Shown here: positions 5,473 to 63,069 of the stretch, piece by piece
Layout: every line of letters starts with the position of its first letter
Position numbering within the stretch: the first letter of the stretch is position 1
DNA from: Ligustrum vulgare
Lineage: Eukaryota > Streptophyta > Magnoliopsida > Lamiales > Oleaceae
Length of the DNA stretch: 64,000 nucleotides
NCBI GenBank assembly: GCA_963555705.1
Contig: OY743174.1
Coordinates: 56,814,234 to 56,878,233 of the forward strand
Reading direction: 5' to 3'
Notes under the pieces: generated by a model
Database searches by the model: none
What the model was told of the DNA's origin: nothing
The model's input: only the letters and a program-made list of their open reading frames with translations
Translations under genes and position numbers: made by a program

Positions 5473-6765
5473 TTAATTCTCGAAATTTGAATGTTGTTCC
5501 CACAAATGTTCAATCAAAGCATTTCAGAGTGCAGTGTGAGCCTCTTTATCCTTAATTTGACGATGACAAGCGAGAAACTCCTGGAAACAGATATTTTCAT
5601 TTACAACCATCTCAACTTGTGGGCTGGCGCTTCTAACCACTCTCGAATATGTGCTTCAACATCACGTCCATCCTCTATGATCGTATTGTGCATAATGATA
5701 CATGCAGTCAAGATATCGTGTAAGATTTTTTTTTCCAAAATCGTGACGGTCCTGCAACAATTGCGAACCTAAATTGTAAAACTTCAAATGCTCGTTGAAC
5801 GTCTTTTCTATAGCTTTCTTGTTTCATTGCGAAATATTTTTTCTTCGGTCCACGTGGATCATGAATTGTTTCTACCAGAGTGGCACACTTCAAATATATA
5901 CCTCAACTAAATAGTAACTCATATTGTATTTGCGTCCCGGTATGATGTATTTAGCCGAGGGAGCAATACCTTTAGCGATGTTGGAAAATAGATGGGAGGC
6001 CTCTAAAACATTGATGTCATTGTTTGAACCTGGCATGCCAAAGTATGCGTGCCATATACAAATATCATAATCCACTATGGCCTCTAAGACAATGGTTCGT
6101 GATCCACTCCGTCATACGTACTGGCCTGCCATGTGGTTGAACGATTTTCCACCTCCAATGCATACAGTCAACACTACCCAACATTCCGAGAAAATCACGT
6201 TGTTAACCAACGTTAAGAAGCCGTGCAATGTTATTAGCGTTGTGTGAACGCAAATAACGGCTTCCATATACCTCCACGACTGCACGACAAAACTTTTCAA
6301 ACTTTCAATAGTTGTTGACTCACCAATCTTGCAGTACTCATCAGTTGCATCCGTCGCAATGCCATACACAAGCATCCGAAATATGGCAGTAATCTTTTGA
6401 AGAGAGAACAACCTTCGACTCCACAGACTGTACTATGCGTAAAAATAAATTTCTTGACATGCGATAACATCGTCGAAACAACATTTCGTCGTAATGTAGG
6501 TTCGCTGCGAAGTAAACGTTGAACAATCATTCATGGGTAGACTTTCTATTGCAATTTATGACAATGTGCTCAGGACCGAGCCACCGTGTGTTGGTGGAAT
6601 TCATTGTTGTTTGACCACTTCAGTTAGAATGATGTTGTTATTCAAATACATGTGAACCACAGCATCATGACGTGCCTCAAGTGCCTCAAGGTCATTCATG
6701 ATCTGCTCATCTTCGTCATGAACACTGTCGTTTACATTGGAAGATCCGCCAACATTGAAATTCAT
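5473..6765 (-). pseudogene. PIF/Harbinger DDE transposase pseudogene
   Basis: Read on - from an ATG at 6765 to a stop at 5475-5473, the broken frames give in order a leader rich in Asp/Glu, the segment YGIATDATDEYCKIGEST, the first catalytic block GSVDCMHWRWK, the second block GSNNDINVLEASHLF, then IHDPRGPKKKYFAMKQESYRKD and a C-terminal EAHTAL-NALIEHLWEQ. These are hallmarks of the HARBI1-like DDE family, which cuts and joins the element ends. Several frameshifts and in-frame stops break it (around 6530-6600, 6110-6180, 5900, 5700 and 5520). The usual VERAF glutamate, the third catalytic acid, reads VQRAF here, so the active site is also lost. The start faces the + strand companion gene across about 660 bases of tandem repeats. 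Confidence 0.87.
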
Positions 6766-9238: not shown

Positions 9239-10863
9239 TCACAGGTTCGTGCAATGAAGTTGGACCCTCTGATTCTCATCATCTCCTCCATCTCGAAAGA
9301 GATTCGACCACGAATCGACACCTACAATAAAAATAGAAAATTCAGACACAATAAATGTAACTGAAATTTCATACTCACCGTGCAAAATCAATTTGTAGGC
9401 GTTGCGAAGAACTTGAGAGGTGCCAACATCGCAGGGTAGCATTTTGGATTTTAATCGATCGGGAACCCGTTCTCCCCTTGAAAAGAACCATTTCCAACCA
9501 CCCGGATCAAATACGAATCGCATTCGATCTTGGTTCGGATTGAAAGTACATTTTTCAATAAGCGCCCTAAATTGACGCTCACCCTGCTCTATCAGGGGCT
9601 CAACCAAATTTGCCTTTTTATACCCACCTAAACTAGCATCTCCAAACATAAACAAATGCATCAATCTCAAAAGAGTTAGTAGGCTAGGGCAAAAAACAAC
9701 ATTAAGTGGAGAAAACTTGCTACTAGGATAAACACTTTTATTGCAAGCAAATTTAACAACCACAAATTGAGCATCATTTTTATGCAAATGCACCACTCCC
9801 CCAAAGAAAAGATTCATCATGTTGATAGCAATGCGGATTTCATGACATGTAGTAAAATGTGAAAGTTTAATACCCCTATCAACATCCACAAAATTAGCAT
9901 CATTTGTTTTCTTTAGTCTAAGTAAACCCAACACAAACTCCATAGAATGATTAATCCAATGTTTACTGGGAACGTGCAAATGTGTGTATAAAACTTGAGG
10001 TAAAAACTTAGATTTAGCCATTTTGAACGTTCGGCCTTTACCACAAGTGCAAACATGTTTATCACCAATTTTCCAATAAGGCCAATAAAAGTGATCACAA
10101 AATATTTCCACGGCCCTCTTGGTTTCAAAGTGCCCAATCAAACAACCAACATGTGTCTCACTCATTAGAAATTCGCGCATGGCACATTTAGAAACAAACA
10201 ATCCAACTTTCCAAAACAAATAGTTATCATGCCCATAAAATTCATCAAAATATTGTTCACAGCACGATTCACAAATGTTTAACAAATTCAGATTATTAAC
10301 ATGGATGCCCTTAACATGCTCAATACAAAATGAGTTGACACTTAGACAATTAGGCACACATAAAAATTTGAATTTACAAATGAGGAATTTATCATGCCAA
10401 GGACCTTCCTTACATGCAACATTTCCATATGACAAAATTTCATTTATCAAGTCCACATCAATGTCATACAATCCTTTGATGTATTCCAAATATAATAACC
10501 TTGCTCTCGAAGAAGTGTTGGAGCGTACCTCCTAGATGTTGCATCGGTTACCACATTTTCTTTACCTTGATTGTATTTGCTGTGGTAGGAAAATATCTCC
10601 ATAAAGTTCTTCCACTCGGCATGACTTTTGAGTTCTTGATTACTTTGATAAGTCGGTCTCACGATCTCCTGCAACAAAGAAGTAACCAAGCTAGGGAGGG
10701 CATTGTTAGAAAATTCAAGAGTAAAGAACATTTTTGTGTGATCTCTCCTCTCAATTTTCTTTGTGGCACTTATCACTTCCTCACCTTTTTCTGAGGTAGT
10801 ATCCTCAACTCTCGGTGCTTCTCTCGCCTCTCCTTTTTCTGGAGTAGTGGCTCCAACTCTCAT
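9239..10863 (-). pseudogene. Gypsy pol remnant: end of RNase H plus integrase
   Basis: The frame at 10863-10447 contains PSLVTSLLQEIVRPTYQSNQ, the usual lead-in to reverse transcriptase, and then jumps straight to the end of RNase H (YNQGKENVVTDATSRRY), so the whole RT core is gone. A frameshift near 10490 leads to the 416-residue integrase frame (10489-9239) with a degenerate zinc-binding block (GHFETKRAVEIFCDHFYWP ... CTCGKG). The first catalytic Asp block reads HSMEFVLGL where the family has D-F. The segment carrying the second Asp and the Glu is deleted between VVHLHKNDAQF and KFACNKSVY. The C-terminal part (DPGGWKWFFSRGERVPDR) is recognisable. No active enzyme is possible. Confidence 0.85.
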
Positions 10864-11022
10864 TGTCTCTCCTTTTTCTAGGGACGTGGCCCCAACTCTC
10901 TTACTCTCATTTTTATTTTCTCCAATTCTCTCAATTGAATTTTCATTTTCAATTTCTTTCTCCTTTTTCTTTTCTTCTTCATTTTCACCTTCCTTGTCTT
11001 TCTTTTTCTCCTCTTCTTCCTC

Positions 11023-11517
11023 TCACTCCTTCTTGAGTTTCATTTGATCTTTATGAACTTCCTCCAAACTCAAAGATAGGATCACAACCCTTTTTCCATT
11101 CATTTGGAAGCTGCACCGGTTCTTCCTCTTGTCATGTGTCACACCCCTATCACTTTGCCAAGGTCTCCCCAAAATTATGTGAGTAGTGTGTAAGGGAACC
11201 ACATCACATAATATTTGATCACTATAAGTACCAATGTGAAAAGTAAGAAGAACTTGTTCACTTACCCTCACCTCCCCATAGTCATTCAACCGTTGCAATA
11301 TGTAAGGACTAGGATGCTTCATAACCGGTAGCCCCAATTTCTCAACTCTACTAGCACTCACCAAATTCATGTCACTCTCCCCATCTATAATGAGACTACA
11401 TGCCCTATCCCCCACAAGGCATCTAGTGTAGAAATTATTTCCTCCATGCTTCTCCCTCTCATTATCATGGGCTAAAAATTTTGGTAGCCTAGCATTCATC
11501 TCCTTCACTACTTCCAC
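11023..11517 (-). pseudogene. Gypsy aspartic protease fragment
   Basis: The 164-residue frame contains FYTRCLVGDRACSLIIDGES, corresponding to the Asp-Gly protease signature (the family usually has DGGS), then LGRPWQSDRGVTHDKRKNR, a block found after the protease in plant Gypsy polyproteins. The following sequence is Lys/Glu-rich low-complexity coding. It is part of the same broken polyprotein as 9239-10863. Confidence 0.82.
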
Positions 11518-12052
11518 TACCGTCCCTCCTATGGAATGATGAAGTCTTCATTTTCTCAATATTAACCTTCTCATTCATCCCATCTCCACTCCTATCTATC
11601 CATTCTCTTTGTCTCCTACCCATTCTCCAATCTTCTTCCACTTCTCCACTTCTACCCATTCCATGGAGTGATGAATTTTGCATTCTCGCACTATCAATAT
11701 TTTCATCAACTCCATTTCTCCTACCTTCTAACCACTCTCTTCTTTTCCTATTCAAACTCTCATTTTTTTCATCATCCCTTTCATCATCCCAAGAATCCCT
11801 TCTAATTTTCCTATTCAAACTCCCATTTTGTTTTCTACTTCCATCCATATACACAATGTTCCCAAATTTATCCCTCGCCATTCTTCTACTACACATCATT
11901 TCTTCATCTCCCCTATTTGATGTACTCTCTCCTCTTGTTCCTAAATTTTCCAACAAGTACTTCAAATCTTGAGTTTGAGAATTGAAAATGGACATGGTGT
12001 GCAAGTGTGAAAGTGTTCTCACAAGAAAATATTTCTCTCGTGTTTCACTCAA
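11489..12052 (-). pseudogene. Gypsy gag N-terminal fragment
   Basis: The 187-residue frame starts MSETREKYFLVRTL and is rich in Arg, Asp, Glu and Asn, with short internal repeats such as SLNRK and GDGMNEKVNIEKMK. It stops where the capsid region would begin and leads quickly into the protease frame, so most of gag is deleted. Identification rests on position between the tRNA-binding site and the protease. Confidence 0.6.
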
Positions 12053-12844
12053 ATTTGGCTTTTACCCTCTATTGAGCTCACCACTCTTGCCTTTTTCCAC
12101 TCAAAATCTCCTTTCTCAAGTTCTCCAAGGAAAATAATCAACTAAACCACAAATTATAATTCTTGTGGAGTTAAAAAAATCACCAACAAGGAAGAAGGAA
12201 TTTAAAACAAGTAGACACAAATAGCAAGTAGAATTTATGTGCTTGCTATACTCAAAAGGAACAATATGTATGAGAGATAAGATGCTAGGATCACAATTTA
12301 GTAATGAGATTGACAAACCACAATTAATAGACAAGGCATAGATGTAGAACAATAAGCACAAAGAGTGTAAATTTTGAATGAGGCAATTTATCAAACACCT
12401 TATACTCAATCTTTAAATGACCTTGAATGGATAAAATGTGGATATATGATAAATTCCCAACAACCCAAATGTGACAAGAAATGAATGATCAACAATTACC
12501 CAATGTATGAAGCAAGTAATATATGGGATACAATGTTGATAACACAATTTCAATGATGGGAATTAGATAGCCCCAAGTAATTAACAAGTTATGGGCATTG
12601 AATAATATGGCATGAATGTGGTATTTTTCTTTGGGACAATTTATCAAACACTTTGAATAATGTAGGAAAGTAAGTGTTTGGCTAATAGAAACCCCCAACA
12701 AATTCAACAATCAATATACCCAATACATGAAATCAACAATACACATGGGCATATGAAATTTTCTCCAATTTTCAAATTTTTTTTTTTCACAATGACAAGA
12801 ACAACAACAAGAAACTAAAGATAAGTTTACCAAATTAGAGCCAA
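12053..12844 (-). other. Gypsy untranslated leader
   Basis: AT-rich and noncoding, between the primer binding site and gag. It contains two diverged copies of a word around TTTGATAAATTG (near 12385-12400 and 12635-12650) and a poly-T run at about 12778-12788. No gene seen. Confidence 0.6.
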
Positions 12845-45202: not shown

Positions 45203-45584
45203 GATACAATGTTATTATGTTGGTGTGTTAGTATAAAATAAAATCTAATCAAATTATCTAAATAAGGGAAAGATGTAAAAAATTTAACAAATATGGAGCA
45301 AGGGTCATGAATTTTATAAATCTGGTTATGCTTGGGAATATAGATTTCTTGAAGGATGGTTTGAGCTTTTTCTATTTTTTATTTGAAGATCGGAGGTGAT
45401 TTCATTTCACTTATTGGAGGTGAACTGATGTACAGTGGGATGTGTTTTTGCCGGGCATTTTAAAGATTGTCAAATGTGCTTGTGCCTTGTATTTTTGGGT
45501 TTTGGCGCGGGGTGGTGGGTGAGAGGTCGAGATTTATATACTCTCAATTATTATTATTATTATTATTACAAAGTTGAAAAGGTG
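45203..45584. other. Upstream region of the pectin acetylesterase gene
   Basis: AT-rich promoter region, ending in a (TTA)n run at about 45548-45570 just before the LTR element. No further gene. Confidence 0.55.
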
Positions 45585-45589
45585 GATCT

Positions 45590-45823
45590 TGTTATAAAAC
45601 TATCAAAATCTAAACAAGAATTAGAGATGAAGAGATGGAGAGAATAAAGAGGAGAATTCTCATTCCATTAGGTGTGTCAAATACAACAATGAATGCCTCT
45701 ATTTATAGGAAGATAAAGTCATTCACAATAATTCTTTACAATATTAATTAGGTGGGAGTTAGGTAAGAAATTAGGTAGAGATCTACAAAGGAATTTCTTA
45801 ATAATTTCTAATAATTTATAACA
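45590..45823 (-). repeat. 3' LTR of the LOG-carrying element
   Basis: 234 bp, identical to the copy at 51310-51543. On - it contains TATAAATAG (45707-45699). Confidence 0.95.
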
Positions 45824-45833
45824 CTCCCCCTTG
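45824..45833 (-). promoter_or_regulatory. Polypurine tract of the LOG-carrying element
   Basis: On - AAGGGGGAG directly abuts the LTR start TGTTATAAAT. This sets the element's direction. Confidence 0.85.
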
Positions 45834-45857
45834 AATGACTTATTGCTCAATTGTCTT

Positions 45858-46582
45858 CCTCGTTAAAACCTTGCTAAGAAAACCCAGTGGGATAAAACTT
45901 GAGCAAAGGAAAAAAGAGTACAGCTGCTCCCCCTGATGTTGGCCATCATTAATCATTGAGTCTAATATCCAAAATGACATCAATGATAAGTAGTACAAAT
46001 CATGTACTGAAATCTGAAGTGCTTCGCTGCTTCAGTGTTTTAGTGCTTTAGTGCTGCCTCGTTAAAACCTTGTCAGTAAAACCCAATGGGACAAAATCTG
46101 AACGAAGGAAAAAGAGTACAGCCGCTGCCTCGTTAAAACCTTGTCAGGAAAACCCTGTGGGACAAAACCTGGACGAAGGAAAAAGAGTACAGCATGACAG
46201 CATGATTCTCCCCCTGAAGTGTGCAATCAAGTATTCATGAACCTTTTGAATAATGATATCATCTTTCTTCTGGAATATATATGAAAATCTTCCTGTGTGT
46301 AGCCGATATCATAACATTCTTCATAAGATGTGTATGATTTTCTTCATTTGTTGATATCATTCCAGTATAACAATGTGTTGCTGAATTATAGCTTGTTGAT
46401 AGCTATGATGATGCCTCAAAAACCTTGCTAGGAAAATCCTGTGGGACAAAACCTCAGCGAAGGGAAAAAGAGTGCAGTATTCTCATTAATTTTCATCAAT
46501 ACGCCTCAACTGTTGCCTCATTAAAAACCTTGCTAGGAAAACCCTGTGGGACAAAACCTCAGCTAAGGGAAAAAGAGTGCAA
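45858..46582. repeat. Five copies of a 66-bp motif near the 3' end of the LOG-carrying element
   Basis: Units at about 45858, 46054, 46126, 46412 and 46514 share CTCGTTAAAACCTTGYYAG, AAAACCCWGTGGGACAAAAC and GAAGGAAAAAGAGTACAG. Similar words occur, as I recall, between pol and the 3' LTR of some plant Copia elements. That recollection was not checked. Noncoding. Confidence 0.82.
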
Positions 46583-46736
46583 CGCGTATTTATTCCTTTT
46601 CATGGAATATCACAAGTATATTGATGCAATCACGAATCTTTTCATCGTATAATTTATGATGAGCTTTATATAAATCGTTCATAGCTCATGATGTCATAAC
46701 ATGCTATATTAAGCAATGTTGTACTAATTTATTGAT

Positions 46737-47040
46737 TGCATCTTTCACTTCTGGTGAATAATCAAATTTAGAATTCACTTCTGGTGAATAATTAAACATA
46801 TTCATTTTCATATTCACTTCTGGTGAATAATTAAATCTAGAATTCACTTCGGGTGAATAATTAAACATATTCATTTTCATATTCACTTCTGGTGAATAAT
46901 TAAATCTAGAATTCACTTCTGGTGAATAATTAAACATATTCATTTTCCGAATTCACTTCTGGTGAATATTCATTTTCCGGATTCATTTCTGGTGAATATT
47001 CATTTTCCGGATTCATTTCTGATGGATAATATAATTTTGC
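46737..47040. repeat. Array of CACTTCTGGTGAATA units
   Basis: About ten copies of ATTCACTTCTGGTGAATA, spaced by TTAAACATATTCATTTTCAT or TTAAATCTAGA. Each unit is itself a small inverted repeat (TTCAC...GTGAA), so single strands could form a chain of hairpins. Confidence 0.85.
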
Positions 47041-48370
47041 ATATTGAAAATCAATTGCATGCCCAAATATTCAAATATAATAATAGTACACTCCAATTTC
47101 ACTTTCAACATATTATATCATGAAGTCATTTGTATCATTCTATAGTGATACTAATCTGGGCATATTGAATCTTTCAATGATTTATACATGTATGTTCTTG
47201 CACTTTATAAACTGCAATTTCTAATTTGCAGGAGCATAATCAATCATTGAAATAGATATCAATTTTGACATATAATCTACAATCATTTTACTTGAAATCC
47301 CAACGTACCGCGATCAACTGGTACATCAAAGAATACTCTCAAAGTACCGAGATGAGAATCATACATTTTGATCTCACTCATTGGTATATCAAAGAGCTCA
47401 AGCTAGTGATTTAGACTATAGTCTATCCACCATATGTCATGTTACACATTTAAGCATTTAGACTTCAGGTCGCAATTTGGACTTCAGGTCCTTGAACAAT
47501 AATCCCTACATTGGGTTTATATACTTGGCCAAAGTATTATAATTTCATCAACCTCATTTTTATAAGAGGGTATGCAGTCGACTTATTTATCGATTCCATT
47601 TTAATATAACATAGAGAGATCTCTATATATGTTCTATCATCAGGTACCTGAGTCTCTTACATTTAACTATGTCCCTTTTACTCACTATGAGTATTTAACC
47701 TCAAAGGGATCATTTCAATCATTCAAGAGATATTTATTTTTGGAATCGATAGTCATTATGCTTCAGGCATAATTACGCTTCAGGCGTGTTTTCCCCAAAT
47801 ATTATATTATATCAATTGGCTAAAATGCCGCACATGTCGTCCCTTTTAGGGATGTAATTTCAACCATATATCTCGCTTTGGTAGATTGTATACATACCAC
47901 ACTTTTACAAATCATAAAGCTTCTCGAGCTAATCCCGTTTATTATAGAACTTCTGGTTCAATACGGTTTTATTTCATTTTGATGTATGAATATTTGATTC
48001 AATACAATATTGCTAAACTTCTGGTTCTGGTTCATACTATATACATATTTCACTTGTACGTATGAACTTCTAGTTCAGTAAGATATTTCACTTGTACGTA
48101 TGAACTTCTGGTTCGGCAAGATATTTTACTTGTACGTATGAACTTCTGGTTCAATACAGTATTCATTTCATCAGTACATATTTATGTACAGTTCAAATCA
48201 GTATGCCTTTATTATTTTTATACCGAAAAATCAGGTACAATATCCAAGGAAATATCTCATGATCTCAATCTTGTCGCCAAATCTTCTCTTATATCGAAAA
48301 AGGTAATGACGCATTATCTCACCTTTTTAATAATTTATTCCATTATTTCTTGATGGAATCTATATTACTG
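47041..48370. other. Noncoding part of the LOG-carrying element
   Basis: No gene seen on either strand. It includes scattered repeats such as CTTCAGGTCGCAATTTGGA/CTTCAGGTCC (47463-47495) and CTTCAGGCATAATTACG/CTTCAGGCGTG (47760-47790). From 47935 to 48165 there are five copies of ATGAACTTCTGGTTCA-like words with GTACGTATGAACTTCTGGTT. Confidence 0.6.
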
Positions 48371-48410
48371 ACACGCGGAGCCACCGCTCTTTTACGCGTT
48401 AAATAATGCA

Positions 48411-48419
48411 TTTAAATAG
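48411..48419 (+). promoter_or_regulatory. TATA-like box before the Cys-rich ORF
   Basis: TTTAAATAG lies about 35-40 bases before the ATG at 48452. The same word occurs before the LOG ORF at 49172-49180. Confidence 0.35.
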
Positions 48420-48451
48420 ATGATTTGGGAAGAAGGCTAGATCCATCAAAA

Positions 48452-48997
48452 ATGGATATCATACTTTCAAATATTCGCAAATATTATTCCAATCTTCCAG
48501 TAAATGATTTGAGAAAAATTTATCGAATTAGGCTCGAAAGATTGAGGTTGCTGATGGATCATGGTATCCCAGAAGATGTTCGCTGGTTGATCGAAGCAAA
48601 AGTTCGATTAGCTGGTGAATTGCCATTGACATTTCCTAAACACATGCCTGGTTTAGGAAAAAGTACTTTTGCAAAGAAACGAAGAGCAAAAAGGCTTAAC
48701 GGTTGTTACAAATGTGCTCGTTGGACATGTGATACTCGTTGCAAATCAGTAGGATATTCTTCTGGAAATCGGGATGACAAAATCGATTTCATTAAGGGTG
48801 GACTGAGTAAGGAGTCATTGGATGATATCCGATTGACTCTTGAGACGCACCCAAGTGGGTATGTGCAACGTGAACTCCTTTCCTTATATGCTCAATTTAA
48901 CAAGGATAAAAACCGTTATAGTCTCAAAAATATAGTAGCAAAAGATCCTGTTTGCCAGGCTGTTATAAACAATGATGTTTTGGCTGTTCAGCATTGA
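48452..48997 (+). CDS. 181-residue Cys-rich basic protein of unknown function (virus-like zinc-finger type?)
   Basis: An uninterrupted frame from ATG 48452 to a stop at 48995-48997. An upstream in-frame TTG at 48425 is not preferred, because plants start at ATG. Residues 1-58 look helical and charged (DLRKIYRIRLERLRLL). Residues 69-82 give GKSTFAKKRRAKRL, a strongly basic patch. Cysteines at 85, 88, 93 and 97 form C-x2-C-x4-C-x3-C inside GCYKCARWTCDTRCKSVGYS, which could hold one zinc ion. The tail (residues 118-181) is mixed helical. The basic patch plus Cys cluster followed by GYS resembles the small nucleic-acid-binding Cys-rich proteins of carlaviruses, several of which suppress silencing or alter host transcription. 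This is a motif-level impression from memory, not a search. It lies 257 bases upstream of the LOG frame on the same strand, with TTTAAATAG about 40 bases before its ATG. No introns. Confidence 0.72.
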   Translation: MDIILSNIRKYYSNLPVNDLRKIYRIRLERLRLLMDHGIPEDVRWLIEAKVRLAGELPLTFPKHMPGLGKSTFAKKRRAKRLNGCYKCARWTCDTRCKSVGYSSGNRDDKIDFIKGGLSKESLDDIRLTLETHPSGYVQRELLSLYAQFNKDKNRYSLKNIVAKDPVCQAVINNDVLAVQH

Positions 48998-49171
48998 TAC
49001 AAGGTAAATCTTTTGATATATATGCACATATAAAATATTTTGCTGTTTCCTTTCACGAGTTTTGATAAAGGCTGTTTAAATATTAAATCACCGAAAGGTG
49101 AGTAGGGTGATTTTGTCAAAAGTAAATCTTCACTTTTTCAAAAAACGAGCGGAAATAGTGAAGTTTTTCGG

Positions 49172-49180
49172 TTTTAAATA
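49172..49180 (+). promoter_or_regulatory. TATA-like box before the LOG ORF
   Basis: TTTAAATAG lies about 75-83 bases before the ATG at 49255, a normal plant distance. It suggests the two ORFs could be separately transcribed. Confidence 0.4.
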
Positions 49181-49254
49181 GCCAAACATTTTTCATAGTT
49201 CATTCATCCCAAAATAACATTTTTTCGTAAGTTTTTCCTTCTTTACTTTCAAAA

Positions 49255-49908
49255 ATGGAAGGATCAAAACTTCGACAGATCAAAACTATCTGTGTATTTT
49301 GTGGATCAAAAGTGGGAAAAGGTTTTGGGTATCTAGAAGCAGCCGTGGATTTAGGAAAGAAATTGGGAGAGAAAGGTATCACTCTCGTGTATGGAGGAGG
49401 TAGCAGTGGATTGATGGGTTGTGTTTCACAATCCGCTCTAGTAGAGAAAGCAAGAGTGATAGGTGTTATACCTACTCCTTTAGCTGATATCGCAGGCAAA
49501 ACACGAGGGCATGAAGTACAAACCTTATCTATCCATGAACGCATAACTTGCATGTTATATGGTTCTGATGCCTTCATAGCTCTACCTGGAGGTTTTGGTA
49601 CTTTAGAAGAAATCTTTAATATTACCTCATGGGCTCAACTAGATCTCCATACTAAGCCTATTGGGCTTTTAAATGTAAACAATTTCTTTGATGGTTTACT
49701 AACATTTCTTGATTATGCTGTGGAACAGGGATTCATCTCTCCATTTTCTAGGAGAATCCTTATTTCTGCTCCTACTATCGAGGAACTGCTGGATAAGTTG
49801 CAATCATATATTTCAATACAAGATCCAGCAGGAGTTAAGATAGATTGGTCGCAAGGAAGGGGAATCAAGCGAAAATGGAGTCCGGTTAATGTAAATTTAT
49901 CTTTGTGA
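49255..49908 (+). CDS. LOG: LOG-type cytokinin riboside 5'-monophosphate phosphoribohydrolase, intronless
   Basis: A 217-residue uninterrupted frame. Enzymes of this family release free active cytokinin from its riboside monophosphate in one step. The protein has the N-terminal ICVFCGS strand, the nucleotide-binding YGGGSSGLMG (residues 46-55), the signature PGGFGTLEE (111-119, with Glu119) and Arg96 in IHER. SWAQL and KPIGLLNV also follow the family pattern, and length fits plant LOGs. The usual HERK lysine after Arg96 is Ile here, and the C-terminal 20 residues (GRGIKRKWSPVNVNLSL) are basic and unusual. Plant nuclear LOG genes normally have several introns; none are present, pointing to acquisition as a processed copy or from an intronless source. 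It lies within an LTR element, antisense to it. Expression is unknown. Confidence 0.92.
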   Translation: MEGSKLRQIKTICVFCGSKVGKGFGYLEAAVDLGKKLGEKGITLVYGGGSSGLMGCVSQSALVEKARVIGVIPTPLADIAGKTRGHEVQTLSIHERITCMLYGSDAFIALPGGFGTLEEIFNITSWAQLDLHTKPIGLLNVNNFFDGLLTFLDYAVEQGFISPFSRRILISAPTIEELLDKLQSYISIQDPAGVKIDWSQGRGIKRKWSPVNVNLSL

Positions 49909-49914
49909 ACTCTA

Positions 49915-50130
49915 GAATAGGTGGTGGTAGAGTACGGAGTATTCTCACTCTTGAGACACACCATAAATTTCTAGGATTTTATCAATGTTTTAATCTTGTG
50001 TACCTCAAAGATTTAAGGTGGTAGAGTATGGAGTATTTCTTACTCTTGAAACACACCTTTTTCTTTATTTCCTCAAAAGGTCAGAGGTGGTAGGATACGG
50101 CTACTCCCGAAACACATCTCTTATTTTGAG
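49915..50130. repeat. Three diverged repeats after the LOG ORF
   Basis: Units at about 49920, 50018 and 50085 share GGTGGTAGAGTACGGAGTAT, then CTTGARACACACC or CCGAAACACATC. They may belong to the LOG 3' region or be an element-wide repeat. Noncoding. Confidence 0.7.
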
Positions 50131-50439
50131 GATTATAAATGTTTTTCCCCTTTTTCGTTTTGCATGTATGACTCGTTTTATGCTTATTCAGGAGCAATAA
50201 TAATATCATTTCAGTATATTTAGATGATAATTTTTACTTCTTCTGGAGTAAATATGTACTTCTTCTGGAATACATAAGTGCTCGTGCAAGAACTTTTCCA
50301 GACACTTATCATCTAATATTCATCTCATAATACTGATGAGATTATTTTCACATTAGCTATGTCCGTGCTATCATGTGATATTATTTTATCATACATCAAC
50401 ATTCTCTTGTTGAATAATTTTCATCCACCCATTCAAATT

Positions 50440-50775
50440 CAGATATTGGTAACTTCTGGTACCATTGGATAAAATATTTTTATCAACATTTACCAACTTT
50501 TTGGTAGTGATAACTTCTGGTATCATTTGATGAAATATTATCTATCTTTAGTAGTGATAACTTCTGGTATCATTTAATGAAGTATTAAATAACAATATTT
50601 TATTAACAATAATAATATTAGGGTTATACCACCAAGTATATATTAACAATAATATTGTATATATATTAACAATAATAATACTGGGGTTATACCACCAAGT
50701 ATATATTAAAAATAATATTGTATATATATATTAACAATAATGATACTGGGGTTATACCACCACGTATATATGTTG
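50440..50775. repeat. Two adjacent repeat arrays in the LOG-carrying element
   Basis: Three copies of AACTTCTGGTAYCATT (50440-50580) are followed by three copies of GGGTTATACCACCAAGTATA with AT-rich spacers (50615-50770). Confidence 0.78.
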
Positions 50776-50840
50776 ACAACAATCCTCTAATATGTTAGAA
50801 TTAACCAACAATTGAGGTGTTTATATGTATTCAATTGATA

Positions 50841-51000
50841 AACCGACCATATAGGCGGTGTCAACATAATAAAATAATTAAACCGACCATATAGGCGATG
50901 TCAACATAATGAAATAATTAAACCGACCATATAGGCGGTATCAACATAATGAAATAATTAAACCGACCATATAGGCGGTATCAACGTAATGAAATAATTA
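50841..51000. repeat. Perfect-period tandem repeat, 4 x 40 bp
   Basis: Units start at 50841, 50881, 50921 and 50961, each AACCGACCATATAGGCGRTR followed by TCAACATAATGAAATAATTA, with only a handful of substitutions. In the element's own direction this lies in the leader, about 300 bases after the primer binding site. Confidence 0.95.
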
Positions 51001-51294
51001 CCTTTCATGAGTGAGTGAATCATATCTTTCAGTCAAGGTATTCATAATAGTCCAATCCGTTACGGTGCGTGAATTTGCTTTGAAAGTTTCGGGTTACACA
51101 ATTTCTCCAATTTTTTCTATGGACTTGGAATTGATTTTCTAATCTATGATGTATAAATGATTTTCTAATACCAAAAACACTAGATTTGAAATATGAAACG
51201 TTGATTAATAATAATCTGGTTTCTGATACAGAAGTTCATCATTTAGATGCAACTGTAGAGCATACTCCCGTCGTATTACTCAATTGGCTAGAGA

Positions 51295-51309
51295 CTCGTG
51301 CTGATAACG
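51295..51309 (-). promoter_or_regulatory. Putative primer binding site of the LOG-carrying element
   Basis: On - the sequence right after the 5' LTR is CGTTATCAGCACGAG, not the common initiator-Met tRNA complement. The tRNA used is not identified here. Confidence 0.6.
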
Positions 51310-51543
51310 TGTTATAAAACTATCAAAATCTAAACAAGAATTAGAGATGAAGAGATGGAGAGAATAAAGAGGAGAATTCTCATTCCATTAGGTGTGTCAA
51401 ATACAACAATGAATGCCTCTATTTATAGGAAGATAAAGTCATTCACAATAATTCTTTACAATATTAATTAGGTGGGAGTTAGGTAAGAAATTAGGTAGAG
51501 ATCTACAAAGGAATTTCTTAATAATTTCTAATAATTTATAACA
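51310..51543 (-). repeat. 5' LTR of the LOG-carrying element
   Basis: 234 bp, identical to 45590-45823. It is followed on + by GATCT (51544-51548). The - strand TATA box would start the element's RNA, which runs antisense through both ORFs. Confidence 0.95.
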
Positions 51544-51548
51544 GATCT

Positions 51549-52189
51549 TAAGCATTTTTGTCTTGTTTTATGAAATCTCCAATTTATATGCATGTAATTT
51601 TTTTAAATAATGTTATTTAGTATTGATGGTGCAAAAGTACCAAATTAATTAGTATTTGCTGACATTAAATTAGTATTATTACCCATTCTTATAGAAAAAT
51701 GATAATTGGACAACATGTTTGAACAACATTGTCGACAACACACTCACATGGGGTGATATCCACCAAAATCCCACTCCATGAGAGTGTGTTGTCCACATTA
51801 ATGTTGTGTGGTAGACCTCACCCCATGAGAGTGTGTTGTCCACAATGTTGTGGTGAATTTCATCTCATGTGAGTGTGTTGTCCATAATGTTAATCAAATA
51901 TTTTGTTCAAGTAGCATAACTCATTCTTATATTGATGAGATGACACATGGGATGGTGTTGTAGTTCCTTGATAATATTTATTATTTTAAAAACACTGACA
52001 TCATTAGTAAAAAGTAAAAACTTTATGGTTTTCTTATACATATATTTGGCATAAATTTGAATAATAATTGCTTGATTGATAATGCCTTCAAGATCCTACG
52101 AATGTGTTGATAATGAGTGAATGGTAAGTTTGAAATAGAAAGTATGTTTAATTCATTTAAATTAAAAATTATGATGTGCCAAACATACT
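51549..52189. other. Noncoding stretch with a fold-back repeat
   Basis: 51711-51895 contains three direct copies of GAGAGTGTGTTGTCCACA and one inverted copy (TGTCGACAACACACTCACAT), a small fold-back unit. No gene. Confidence 0.65.
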
Positions 52190-58260: not shown

Positions 58261-58622
58261 TGAAGGATATTGGAATCTCAGACAAAGGTTAAAGATAGTG
58301 AACAGGAGCTAAGTCAGAAGGAAAGCGTGTTTTCTATCTTTACGTTTCTCTTTCTACCACTTGACTTATTATCACATGAGACGCACGTGATTCTCTTCTC
58401 ACTCTTCCAGCTGCGTCTACATCACCAACATGTGCTTCTGCTCTCAGTAACTAACTTCATCATTTCTTCACTTCATCTCCTGATTATCCGTTCTTTGTCA
58501 ATACGTGTACAGCTAGGAATTAGTGTGTAGAATGTTCCATTGTATTATATATATCCATTTCACTGTACAATTGTTGATCGAACAACAGATAATAAAATTC
58601 TATTTTCCCCTGTTTAATTCCA
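58261..58622 (+). repeat. 5' LTR of the Ale-type Copia element
   Basis: 362 bp, TGAAGGATATTGG...AATTCCA. A TATATATA word lies at 58543-58550. It differs from the 3' LTR at about 58291, 58383 and 58427. Confidence 0.93.
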
Positions 58623-58624
58623 TT

Positions 58625-58636
58625 TGGTATCAGAGC
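58625..58636 (+). promoter_or_regulatory. Primer binding site (initiator Met-tRNA)
   Basis: TGGTATCAGAGC, two bases after the canonical LTR end. Confidence 0.95.
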
Positions 58637-58644
58637 CCACGATT

Positions 58645-61600
58645 ATGGCAGATACCACCACCACCACCACTACTGGTAACTCAGCCTCAAATAACATCAC
58701 CTCAACCTCGATAAATTCCACTAACTCTTGGTCACCATTTTCGGCTAATCTTACTCAAACTCCCACCATCAAATTGGACAGGGAAAACTACTTGTTCTGG
58801 CGCAATATGGTTCTGCCCATCATCAAGGGACATAACCTTGATGGATATATTTTTGGTACCAACACATGTCCTTCAGAAACCATCACGCAGCAGCCAACAT
58901 CCGATTCGGAAACCAGTAGTGAGATTGTTCCCAATCCAGAATATAAAATCTGGAAATCCACTGATCAGCTACTTATTGGGTGGTTATACTCCAAAATGAC
59001 CCCAGAAGTAGCTATGAGAGTCATGGGTTCAGCTAGCTCCTTCACATTATGGGAGTCTATCAAGGAAATCTATGGTACTCAGAACAAGGCCAGAATAATT
59101 TTTCTCACAGGAGAGTTACAAAGGACAAGGAAGGGAGATTTGTCTATTGATCAGTACTTGACTAAGATGAAAGGGATTGCTGATAATCTTGAAGTTGCAG
59201 GAAAACCAGTCTCAGTATCAGACTTAATCAGTCAAGTTCTAGCAGGTCTTGATGAAGACTTCACGCCAATGGTTGTTATGCTGACCAGTAAAGAATCACT
59301 GAGCTGGGGGGGTTGTACTCAGCTCTTCTAACCTTTGAAAGCAGGTTAGAACATATCTCTAGTATAAGAGAAGACTTGGGGAACTTGAATCTAACCCAAG
59401 TATCAGCAAATTTCACACAAAGTGGAAGAGGTTCATATCCGCCAAGGAGAAACTACTCCAGCAGAAACAACAGAGGAAGTAGGAGAGGCTATAGAGGTAG
59501 AGGGGGCAGAGGTCCAAATTATGGAATCACCAGTTATGGTGGGAATATTGGTGAAAGACCAGTATGTCAAGTCTGCTCCAAGGTCGGTCATAAAGCAAAT
59601 GTATGTAACTACAGGTTTGATGAATCATACACAGGAACCTCACCTCACCAGCAACACAGATATCCTCAGTATAACAAGTTTGGATCCCAACCAGCAGCTT
59701 ACATTGCAACACCAGATGTCCTCAATGATTCTGCTTGGTATGCAGACTCTGGTGCTACCCATCATGTGACAGCAGATGCCAGTAAACTGAAGGAAGGCAC
59801 TGAGTATGGAGGTAACAAACAAATTGTCATTGGAAATGGTGAGACACTTAACATTTCTCAGATTGGTAAAGCTTTACTACCAAGTCTAACCGATAAAACA
59901 ATTCAGCTTAATAATCTGATGCATGTTCCTTGTATGAAAAAGAATTTGATAAGTGTATCCCAGCTCACACTAGATAACTCAGCTTTTATGGAGTTTCACC
60001 CTTTCTATTGTTGTTTGAAGGACAAGCAAACGAAGGCCCCATTGCTGGAAGGGAGGCTTAGAAGAGGCTTATACCAGCTTGATTTCCCAAAAGTGACTTT
60101 CCAGAAAAGATCCTTCAACAAACCTCATATCTCTGCTATGGTTACTGAGTCTAAGTATCCTAAAGTTAAACAAAGTGAGTCTAGTCAGTATTTAGTCTGT
60201 GAGTCAGAGTCAGAGTCCCTTAGTTCAAATCAAAGGTCCCTGGCCAGTCTGTGGCATAGGAGACTTGGGCATCCGTCTATTGAAGTCCTGTCACAAGTTC
60301 TAAGTAATTGTAACCGAGCTATTAATAAAAATGATCTTAAAAACTTCTGTGATGCCTGCCAATTAGGTAAATCTCATCTGCTCCCTTTCACCAGATCCAA
60401 TTTTCATGCTAAAATGCCTCTTGAATTGATCTATACTGATCTATGGGGGCCTGCTCCATTAAATTCAACTGCTAACTTCAAATACTACATTATGTTTGTT
60501 GATGATTTCAGCCGATTTATTTGGATCTACCCTATGAAAGTCAAATCTGAAGCACTTCAAATCTTCCTGCACTTTAAGAAACTGGTTGAAAACCAATTTG
60601 ACACCAAGATCAAAACATTGCAATCTGACTGGGGTGGGGAATATCGACCTTTCACACCTATTCTATCAAAGTTTGGGATTAATTTCAGGCACCCATGTCC
60701 TCATACTTCTGCACAAAATGACAGGGTTGAAAGAAGGCACAGGTCACTCACTGAAATGGAACTAACCCTATTAGCACAATCCAAACTTCCACTTAAATTT
60801 TGGTTAGAAGCCTTTCAAACAGCTGCCTATCTTATAAACCGGTTGCCAACACCTATACTTCAGCAAAATACACCCTACTCTATGCTTTTTAAGAAACCAG
60901 TAGACTATTCTAGTCTAAAAGTTTTTGGTTGCACATGTTACCCTTGCCTAAGGCCCTACAAATCACACAAGTTCAGCTATCACTCTGAGAAGTGCATCTT
61001 TCTTGGGTATAGTCAATCACACAAGGGTTTTAAATGCCTAAGTACCTCTGGAAAAATGTATATATCCAGACATGTCATCTTTAATGAACATGAGTTCCCT
61101 TATGAGTCATATTTTATGTCCAAATCCAAAATTGATCACTCATTAATTGTTAAATCCTTTCAAAATTCATCTTCCTATCTTCTATTTAACCACTTAGAGT
61201 CCTTCATAAATCCCTTATCAACTGGTATGGCTTCAACTACAACCTCTCAATCCATCAGTGAACCTCAGTTTGGTCCTAACAGCCACTTTACAGAAGGTGA
61301 AAATGAGGATTTCTCTACTGAATCAGAGTTTGACAGGAGAATTGAGTCAGAAGAGCATAATTCAGAAGGAAGGACCTCATATCAGATCAGTGGAGAAAAT
61401 GCTGAAACTGTACTTCCAGAATTACCAAATCAACAATCACAGGGACATCCTATGATTACTAGGGCTAAGGCAGGAATTTTTAAGCCTAAAGTTCTATCTG
61501 TTATGGCTCATAATTCTCTGGATTGTAAGGAACCATCTAGTGTGGCAGAGGCTCTCACAAATGATAAATGGAAGCAAGCCATGGTAGAAGAATATTCTGC

Positions 61601-63069
61601 ACTAATAAAGAATCAGACTTGGACTCTTGTCCCTCCATCAAATTCTTACAATGTTGTTGGGAGCAAGTGGGTATTTAAGCTCAAACAAGATGTGACTGGT
61701 ACAATCCAAAGACATAAAGCAAGGCTTGTAGCAAAGGGCTTCCATCAAACACAAGGGGTGGATTATTTTTGAAACCTTCAGTCCAGTGGTAAAGTCTTCC
61801 ACTCTCAGGATCATTCTCACCTTGGCCGTGTCTTTCGACTGGAAGTTGAGGCAAATTGATTTCAACAATGCTTTCCTCAATGGTGATCTTGAAGAGACAG
61901 TTTATATGTGCCAGCCAACAGGTTTTGTTAATGAAGAAAAATCGAATTATGTTTGCAAATTGAGGAAAGCTTTGTACGGTCTTAAGCAAGCTCCACGAGC
62001 TTGGAATGACAAGTTGAAAGGAACACTACTCAGCTTGAACTTCTCACAGTCCAAAGCAGATTCCTCTTTGTTCTTCTACAAATCTCATGAGGTACTTATC
62101 TTCCTCTTGATTTATGTTGATGATTTAGTTATTACAGGTAGCAGTCCTACATTCATTCAAGCACTTATTGACAAGCTTAACAAGATGTTTACACTTAAAG
62201 ACTTGGGAGAACTACATTACTTCCTGGGAATAGAAGTTAGTAGACATGAATCTGGACTGCATCTATCACAGAAGAAATACATTGAGGAAATGCTAAACAA
62301 GTTCAATTTCAAAGGTCTTAAGCATTGCCCTTCACCTAGTGCAACTGGGAAAACTCTATCTAAATTTGATGGAGAACAACTTAAAGATGCAGCCTTATAT
62401 AGGAGTGCAGTAGGAAGTCTACAATACTTAGCGCATACTAGACCAGATATTGCCTATAGTGTAAATAAGCTAAGTCAATTTCTTCAACTACCAACCACTG
62501 CACATTGGACAGCTCTCAAACGAGTCTTCAGGTATTTGCTTGGAACAAAGGACCATGGACTTTGGATTAAAATATCAGAAAAACTCATAATAAACGGCTA
62601 TTCAGATGCTGACTGGGCCTCTTGCCTAGATGATAGGAGATCTACTGCTGCTTACTGTGTCTATCTGGGTGACACACTCATTGGATGGTGCTCCAAGAAG
62701 CAAAATGTAATAGCCAGATCAAGCTCAGAAAGTGAATATAGAGCTCTAGCCCTTGCCACTGCTGAGATGATCTGGGTACAATCTTTGATTGAAGAAATTG
62801 GATTTAAGCTACCTTCTCTGCCAATCCTCTGGTGTGATAATTTGAGTGCCAATGCCTTGGCCTCAAACCCCGTCTATCATGCCAGAACCAAGCATATTGA
62901 ATTGGATCTTCATTTCATTAGGGATAGAATCATAGAAAAAAAGATGGAGATAAAGTATGTACCTTCAGCAGATCAAATTGCAGACTTGATGACTAAGAGT
63001 CTACCTCATACTAGATTCCATTTTTTGAAGATCAAACTAGGAGTCACAAAAGTGCCTTCCAGTTTGTAG
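58645..63069 (+). pseudogene. Copia gag-pol polyprotein with two frameshifts
   Basis: gag starts at ATG 58645 and reads LDRENYLFWRNMVLPIIKGH, a capsid block typical of the Ale/Retrofit lineage. A one-base loss in the G-run 59306-59312 shifts the frame. Beyond it come the zinc knuckle CQVCSKVGHKANVC, protease WYADSGATHH, LWHRRLGHPS, integrase with YTDLWGP, LQSDWGGEY and a Glu in NDRVERRHRS, then RT from NDKWKQAM. An extra T in the run 61766-61770 shifts the frame again. RT then continues with YVDDLVITG, and RNase H with GYSDADWA and SSSESEYRAL, ending at TAG 63067-63069. All catalytic motifs are present, so both breaks are recent single-base changes or sequencing errors in homopolymers. Product names are from family knowledge. 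Confidence 0.93.

Follow-up and report, generated by a model that had tools for sequence, protein, structure and literature searches.

The 64,000-nucleotide stretch of the Ligustrum vulgare contig OY743174.1 analysed here (the window) carries at positions 45590-51543 a long terminal repeat (LTR) retrotransposon of 5954 bp, which an original prediction made from the sequence alone had described as a young element coding for a cytokinin-activation gene plus a Cys-rich open reading frame (ORF). The reality of the element was confirmed. Its two LTRs are identical (234/234 bp) and have TG...CA ends, a short GATCT target-site duplication lies on either flank, and both a polypurine tract and a primer-binding site are present, the latter having been compared with the genome's own tRNA-Ile gene (Table 1). 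A plant-type TATAAATA box stands in the LTR as read on the minus strand, CAAGGGGGAG lies beside the left LTR and CGTTATCAGCACGAG beside the right one. The orientation of the element is thus minus, and the two intact frames of its interior, ORF A and ORF B, both on the plus strand, are antisense.

As the original prediction had stated, the interior holds no recognisable gag or pol. In tblastn with the gag/pol of one other Copia of the window, identified by Pfam, as query, neither the element nor any of 28 fetched copies showed similarity at E <= 1, very diverged remnants being possible; by this measure the element lacks the genes of an autonomous retrotransposon. Much of the remaining interior is made of non-coding tandem repeats, and a search of positions 45500-51650 against Rfam gave no match at the gathering score. 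The possibility that the LTR element conceals a virus genome was considered and rejected, the ORF list containing no further frame of at least 130 aa (coat and polymerase genes were sought in that list and by the gag/pol tblastn).

Table 1. Positions in the window of the element and its features
Feature	Positions	Strand	Basis
Target-site duplication GATCT, left	45585..45589	.	flank comparison
3' LTR, 234 bp, plus-strand TGTTATAA...TTATAACA	45590..45823	-	LTR alignment
TATAAATA box in the LTR, repeated at 51420-51427	45700..45707	-	sequence reading
Polypurine tract CAAGGGGGAG adjoining the 3' LTR (left)	45824..45833	-	sequence reading
Dispersed non-coding repeats, a ~59-70 bp unit in five copies (plus-strand CCTCGTTAAAACCTTG...)	45854..46582	-	repeat families D4, D5
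69-bp tandem repeats, non-coding	46744..46950	-	repeat family D2
TATA-like TTTAAATA upstream of ORF A	48411..48418	+	in 12/12 aligned rows (window and 11 copies)
ORF A, 181 aa, betaflexivirid nucleic-acid-binding protein homologue	48452..48997	+	PF05515, PF01623
TATA-like TTTAAATA upstream of ORF B	49173..49180	+	intact in 16/26 aligned copies
ORF B, 217 aa, LOG-derived protein	49255..49908	+	PF03641
Primer-binding site CGTTATCAGCACGAG adjoining the 5' LTR (right)	51295..51309	-	tRNA-Ile(AAT) pairing
5' LTR, identical to the 3' LTR	51310..51543	-	
Target-site duplication GATCT, right	51544..51548	.	flank comparison

Copies in the genome and selection on the two frames

The genome (1.385 Gb, 51 contigs) was searched with the LTR and with both ORFs. 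The LTR query yielded 40 scored hits among 1406 candidates, which are young copies, those most like the window LTR, and which resolve into 17 complete pairs plus 6 unpaired LTRs. Every one of the 17 pairs encloses ORF A and ORF B in intact form (13 stop-free in the ORF match lists and 4 fetched, L029-L032). Among the best-ranked matches that were scored, 149/150 for ORF B and 141/150 for ORF A contain no stop. Further copies were fetched either by ORF B (L009-L028, n=20) or by rank of ORF A (L033-L056, n=24), the four L029-L032 being anchored on the LTR. In the first group ORF B is intact in 20/20 and ORF A in 19/20, and long terminal direct repeats are present in 20/20. Exact 5-bp target duplications were found by script in 23 of 29 copies (22 of the 28 fetched ones and the window element) and have 23 different sequences, so that the element is neither a chance arrangement nor an assembly artefact. 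The script saw no such duplication in L021, L029, L032, L033, L034 and L035; for L025 it set the LTR end too far out, the duplication TAAAT being nonetheless plain.

Exact LTR-primer site junctions (AACACGTTATCAGCACGA, 18 bp) number 3106 genome-wide, against 0 for the reversed pattern. We sampled eight of them on C1 (8 of the first 9 places among 100 listed of the 3106, the omitted one lying beside an LTR hit): six resemble the family at the leader, one leads to a gag-like frame, an 82-aa piece of which gave no Pfam gag match, and one was left undecided. LTR types of 234, 196 and 175 bp enclose nearly the same ORFs, and ORF B DNA is identical in copies whose flanks differ by several per cent, which suggests recombination between element lineages, bearing in mind that these copies had been chosen for ORF B. 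Taken together, these results support a large, young, amplified LTR family with a stable two-ORF cargo. The recent insertion and the cargo-bearing family anticipated by the original prediction were thus borne out, the cargo being neither limited to one copy nor the product of a one-off capture.

Some copies depart from the common structure. L021 has a 1082-bp direct repeat reaching the end of the fetched stretch, as if tandem elements shared one LTR. L057, L060 and L035 (8121-8421) contain several hundred extra bases between the leader and the repeats. The relative L035 is longer, its LTR-to-LTR length being about 8 kb, and retains both ORFs in intact form; near 6073-6466 the same peptide is read on both of its strands, indicating an inverted repeat, perhaps an insertion.

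Ratios of non-synonymous to synonymous substitutions (dN/dS) were calculated by the Nei-Gojobori method for the window and the 28 more diverged (L029-L056) of the 48 fetched loci (L009-L056), keeping pairs with dS >0.05. For ORF A, 357 pairs of 29 sequences had a median of 0.217. For ORF B the median was 0.161, from 201 pairs of the 21 sequences with a full-length match, of which 8 have one internal stop that was skipped. The comparison of copies that the original prediction had proposed thus gave values (0.22 and 0.16 when rounded) well below 1. Against the window, copies with dS of at least 0.1 gave ORF A values of 0.15-0.34 and ORF B values of 0.06-0.27. The LTR-anchored L029-L032 gave 0.17-0.18 for ORF A, and ORF B was not selected in this set by its own similarity. 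As a control on the reading frame, the corresponding ratio of proportions (pN/pS) was 0.264 for ORF A and 0.180 for ORF B when read in frame. It was 0.91-1.87 in both shifted forward frames and ranged over 0.37-1.81 in the three reverse frames, where the lows of 0.46 and 0.37 belong in each ORF to the reverse frame sharing third positions. Both ORFs are under purifying selection. Sustained selection on the proteins of an element without replication genes implies that these products favour the copies making them, or act very locally.

The two encoded proteins

ORF A matches two Pfam families, Viral_NABP (PF05515, E 2.4e-7, 31.4 bits for a cut-off of 23) and Carla_C4 (PF01623, E 3.1e-5, 24.3 bits for a cut-off of 20.9), and carries the motif C85-x2-C88-x4-C93-x3-C97 together with a basic KKRRAKR. 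On these Pfam matches it is a homologue of the carlavirus/betaflexivirid nucleic-acid-binding protein, an identity that can now be added to the Cys-rich description of the original prediction, to which the four-Cys motif corresponds. The C-x2-C-x4-C-x3-C pattern is present in 104 of the 120 listed relatives (339 found), which include named proteins from Orobanche, Populus, Acer and Xanthoceras; its spacing is presumably unlike that of carlaviruses. A first structural model from 32 sequences was poor (predicted local distance difference test, pLDDT, of 59), and an alignment of 105 rows was therefore used. A Foldseek search with the resulting modest model gave 19 hits, and of the best 9, seven were named and two unnamed, six being called RNA silencing suppressor, all with E no better than 0.034; the seven named ones come from viruses that we take to be betaflexivirids. 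By analogy, ORF A may bind nucleic acids and suppress silencing. Among IMG/VR viral contigs, 9 stretches fit the ORF A pattern and 0 were confirmed by tblastn. Shortly after the ORF A stop, a splice-donor-like AAGGTAA (window 48998-49020; copies L009-L056) is kept in 25/26 aligned copies, and a spliced or two-gene transcript is possible from it.

ORF B belongs to the LOG family, as had been predicted. It matches PF03641 (E 7.3e-34) and, in the PDB, Arabidopsis LOG3 (E 2.1e-58). The window copy keeps PGGFGTLEE, conforming to PGGxGTxxE, the catalytic pair Arg99 and Glu122, and also Glu121, His97 and Trp129. The adenine/prenyl pocket is altered, with Met96 replaced by Ile, Lys100 by Ile and Glu125 by Asn. 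In the parts of PMC4979012 that deal with Corynebacterium glutamicum LOG, catalysis is assigned to Arg99 and Glu122 and adenine binding to Met96, Lys100 and Glu121, while Lys100 and Glu125 are counted among the prenyl-site residues. Among the 120 listed relatives of ORF B (of 7302), Arg99 is kept in 113, Glu121 in 116, Glu122 in 118, Lys100 in 6 and Glu125 in 5; a separate alignment of 120 listed relatives gave 112, 115, 118, 6 and 5 in the same order. All five residues are kept in 120/120 listed host proteins of the LOG1/3 type, a control obtained with a different query and representing one LOG group, so that other host groups possibly fall outside it. Cytokinin activation by ORF B, the role given to it by the original prediction, is doubtful because Lys100 is replaced in 114/120 and Glu125 in 115/120 relatives versus 0/120 host LOGs. 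The two sets differ also at the C-terminus, which reads KRKWSPVNVNLSL in ORF B: a terminal LxLxL is found in 95/120 listed relatives and a basic triplet near the end in 97/120, versus 0/120 listed host LOGs for each.

A LOG tree was built from 43 rows, a chosen subset, with midpoint rooting. The 24 rows labelled mobile form one clade (98/92), in which ORF B falls with proteins of several other eudicots, and Lys100 is replaced in 23 of the 24. Just outside this clade are P0170, in which LxLxL coexists with unchanged Lys100 and Glu125, and two Lys100-bearing Xanthoceras proteins. We read this as an order of changes in which the tail may have come first and the pocket later; P0210, inside the clade with Lys100 kept and Glu125 lost, does not fit this order and runs counter to any single simple one. 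Four Xanthoceras LOG proteins have an ordinary pocket (P0122, P0123, P0184 and P0226, of which P0184 and P0226 are those just outside the mobile clade), and are possibly the host source or domesticated copies. The host-type pattern MH[QE]RKAEMA, which contains the Lys, occurs at 12 places in the genome, 11 of them exact and one with a mismatch, against 0 for the reversed pattern. In view of the separate clade and of the host controls, fresh capture from a LOG1/3-type host gene was rejected, and the 'full-length hormone gene' of the original prediction is not supported in that form.

A probable helper-dependent element and alternative explanations

The first 14 nt of the primer-binding site CGTTATCAGCACGAG pair with the anticodon arm of the genome's tRNA-Ile(AAT) gene if A34 is inosine, the sole mismatch there being the wobble base. 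Neumann et al. (PMC6317226), in the part bearing on primer sites, describe a primer site for half tRNA-Ile, in which the first anticodon base pairs as inosine, as a mark of the Ty1/copia lineage Bianca, and the element has such a site. In the same genome, the same 18-bp junction precedes an autonomous Copia, L065, with RVT_2 (E 3.1e-57), three further pol domains that pass their cut-offs, and integrase core and gag matches that narrowly miss theirs, the gag one being PF14223 in a 370-aa frame. Its 5' LTR appears by eye to start with TGTTATAAAT and to end with ATAACA, one LTR lying within the stretch. No DNA match was found between L065 and the window element beyond 31 bp at the junction, and none to the cargo. 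L065 is thus a candidate for the type of helper, not a proven helper.

The anatomy of the element, its family, the selection on its frames and the residue changes are direct observations. To explain them we favour, with moderate confidence, a young copy of a large helper-dependent LTR family of the Ty1/copia kind (with the Bianca-like half tRNA-Ile site), satellite-like and coding for accessory host-handling genes only. The TATAAATA box would place the genomic RNA on the minus strand; this RNA, made from the LTR promoter, would be packaged, reverse-transcribed and integrated in trans by the gag/pol of an autonomous Copia. Both ORFs would be expressed on the other strand from small promoters of their own, marked by the TATA-like boxes, and their accessory proteins would raise the element's own success. 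In line with the annotation of its virus relatives, ORF A could bind the nucleic acid of the element and dampen RNA silencing. ORF B would be a former cytokinin enzyme of LOG fold, now a nuclear effector with a remodelled base pocket, whose basic tail, resembling the ethylene-responsive element binding factor-associated amphiphilic repression (EAR) motif, could recruit TOPLESS-type corepressors, to which EAR motifs are linked.

Several points weigh against this explanation. Its transcription, protein and activity steps are all deduced from sequence, and the putative helper dependence rests on the shared junction, the LTRs of L065 and of the window matching over 35 bp at 83% only. The ORF A model is of low confidence (pLDDT 70, predicted template modelling score 0.38, from the 105-row alignment) and its best Foldseek virus match has an E of 0.034. 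Since protein similarity guided the choice of most ORF A copies, the ORF A dN/dS is biased low, and in copies with few silent differences it reaches 0.81 against the window. In the older copies L033-L056, ORF A is intact in 22/24 and ORF B in only 8/24, so that ORF B may be of less importance or decay earlier. In 10/26 aligned copies the TATA-like box before ORF B reads TTTAAAAA or is otherwise altered. Finally, the C-terminal motif is degenerate in the copies of this genome (VNVNLSL or close), which makes TOPLESS binding doubtful there.

An alternative that concerns origin, and is compatible with the helper-dependent family, is that the ORFs are accessory ORFs of an extant autonomous Copia or Gypsy whose gag/pol was lost here. 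Antisense accessory ORFs beside pol are known (PMC7264820, in the section concerned), and the portions of PMC9289625 on domain gains, citing Steinbauerova 2011, report a LOG (YgdH) domain in Gypsy consensuses of Citrus and, unfiltered, of Populus, with no domain gain in Copia. Against this origin, gag/pol similarity was seen in 0/28 fetched copies; L065, the one autonomous copy with the same junction that was read, likewise has no DNA match to the cargo. We regard this origin as somewhat unlikely.

An active LOG enzyme could also have been kept as such, raising cytokinin and keeping cells dividing, thereby favouring retrotransposition and inheritance, with ORF A as a helper. The Pfam and LOG3 matches, the conserved PGGFGTLEE, Arg99, Glu121, Glu122, His97 and Trp129, and the strong purifying selection on ORF B speak for it; residues, moreover, may be an unreliable guide to the reaction, since wheat LOGs that share the known residues differ in product (PMC11593424, as far as its account of these enzymes goes). 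However, Lys100, present in 120/120 listed host LOGs, is Ile here and is not Lys in 114/120 listed relatives. It is among the AMP-binding and catalytic residues of C. glutamicum LOG whose change to alanine nearly abolished activity, S19A excepted (PMC4979012, in its mutagenesis results). Since Glu125 is replaced too, and Met96 also in the window copy, we consider a cytokinin-producing cargo unlikely.

That the plant uses the ORFs, the element being a mere vehicle, would account for intact relatives of both in several eudicots, but is very improbable given the many near-identical young copies (149/150 scored ORF B matches stop-free) and a conservation that follows element lineages within one genome, no search aimed at a single-copy domesticated orthologue having been made. 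Passive hitch-hiking of captured sequences without function, for which the known capture of gene pieces by LTR elements (PMC7264820, where it treats capture) and the ratios of up to 0.81 could be quoted, is scarcely credible and largely refuted by dN/dS in the copies with dS of at least 0.1, both ORFs being moreover intact in 17/17 LTR pairs and having intact relatives in other plants.

The helper-dependent family of L. vulgare may have counterparts elsewhere. We put forward, as a tentative proposal, a class of satellite retrotransposons in several eudicots that would depend on helpers and encode only a two-gene module, namely a virus-type suppressor and a nuclear EAR-tagged LOG effector, the suppressor gene having been exchanged with betaflexiviruses in either direction. 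In Orobanche, the domains of ORF A and ORF B occur together in two gene models, P0021 and P0030. By eye, contigs of 8723 and 4511 bp occur in the lists of relatives of both ORFs, a few shared short ones being possibly due to chance, which suggests that relatives of ORF A and ORF B lie on these same two contigs. LTRs around the ORF pair have been demonstrated in this genome only.

Relation to known elements and other features of the window

Large retrotransposon derivatives (LARDs) are non-coding, and geminivirus betasatellites are helper-dependent replicons whose sole gene encodes an accessory or suppressor protein; betasatellites being circular virus DNA, their likeness to the present element implies no descent. 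We file the element among the non-autonomous LTR elements, as a variant with a two-gene cargo; among the papers listed by searches of the open PMC library, we found no report of a helper-dependent element combining a virus-type nucleic-acid-binding protein with LOG (subscription papers lie outside these searches). Like LARDs and terminal-repeat retrotransposons in miniature (TRIMs), it has LTRs, a primer-binding site and a polypurine tract without gag/pol and would be moved in trans (for the known elements, PMC5659011 and PMC10886601, in their descriptions of these classes). In the same descriptions TRIMs are short and encode no protein for mobilisation, whereas the present family codes for two selected proteins.

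Elements with antisense accessory ORFs are known, namely Grande, RIRE2, Retand and PvRetro13 (PMC7264820, PMC11963269). As there, conserved antisense ORFs are present in most copies, a promoter of its own having been reported for Grande; in contrast to these elements, mostly Gypsy, whose ORFs lie beside gag/pol according to the sections describing them, no gag/pol was found here. The antisense ORFs of the reviewed elements show no clear similarity to database proteins beyond a few domains, as far as the relevant section of PMC7264820 states; here one is a viral and the other a LOG relative. A LOG-family domain inside a plant LTR element is shared with the Citrus and Populus consensuses, a likeness taken at the level of the domain; as reported, those are Gypsy consensuses anchored on reverse transcriptase, whereas the present element has no reverse transcriptase, has the half tRNA-Ile (Copia) primer site and pairs LOG with a virus-type ORF.

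ORF A resembles the cysteine-rich nucleic-acid-binding proteins of betaflexivirids (carlaviruses and trichoviruses) in its PF05515/PF01623 matches, four-Cys motif and basic patch, and differs from them in being retrotransposon-encoded, 181 aa long and paired with a LOG protein.

The usual view of non-autonomous LTR elements is that of non-coding parasites of autonomous ones. A family with two selected proteins and no replication genes raises the question of what such an element gains by coding. The role of antisense accessory ORFs becomes directly testable through named proteins, a relative of virus suppressors and a relative of LOG. Such elements would be overlooked by surveys anchored on reverse transcriptase. 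They also offer a starting point for tracing the movement of genes between plant RNA viruses and retrotransposons, and call for caution with LOG gene counts in plant annotations.

Two other regions of the window were noted. On the minus strand, positions 9239-12061 contain four open frames of 174-430 codons that adjoin or overlap one another and have no Pfam match. A separate Copia at 58618-63066, unlike the element studied here, has gag and pol frames and a primer site of the tRNA-Met type, TGGTATCAGAGC, just before the gag start.

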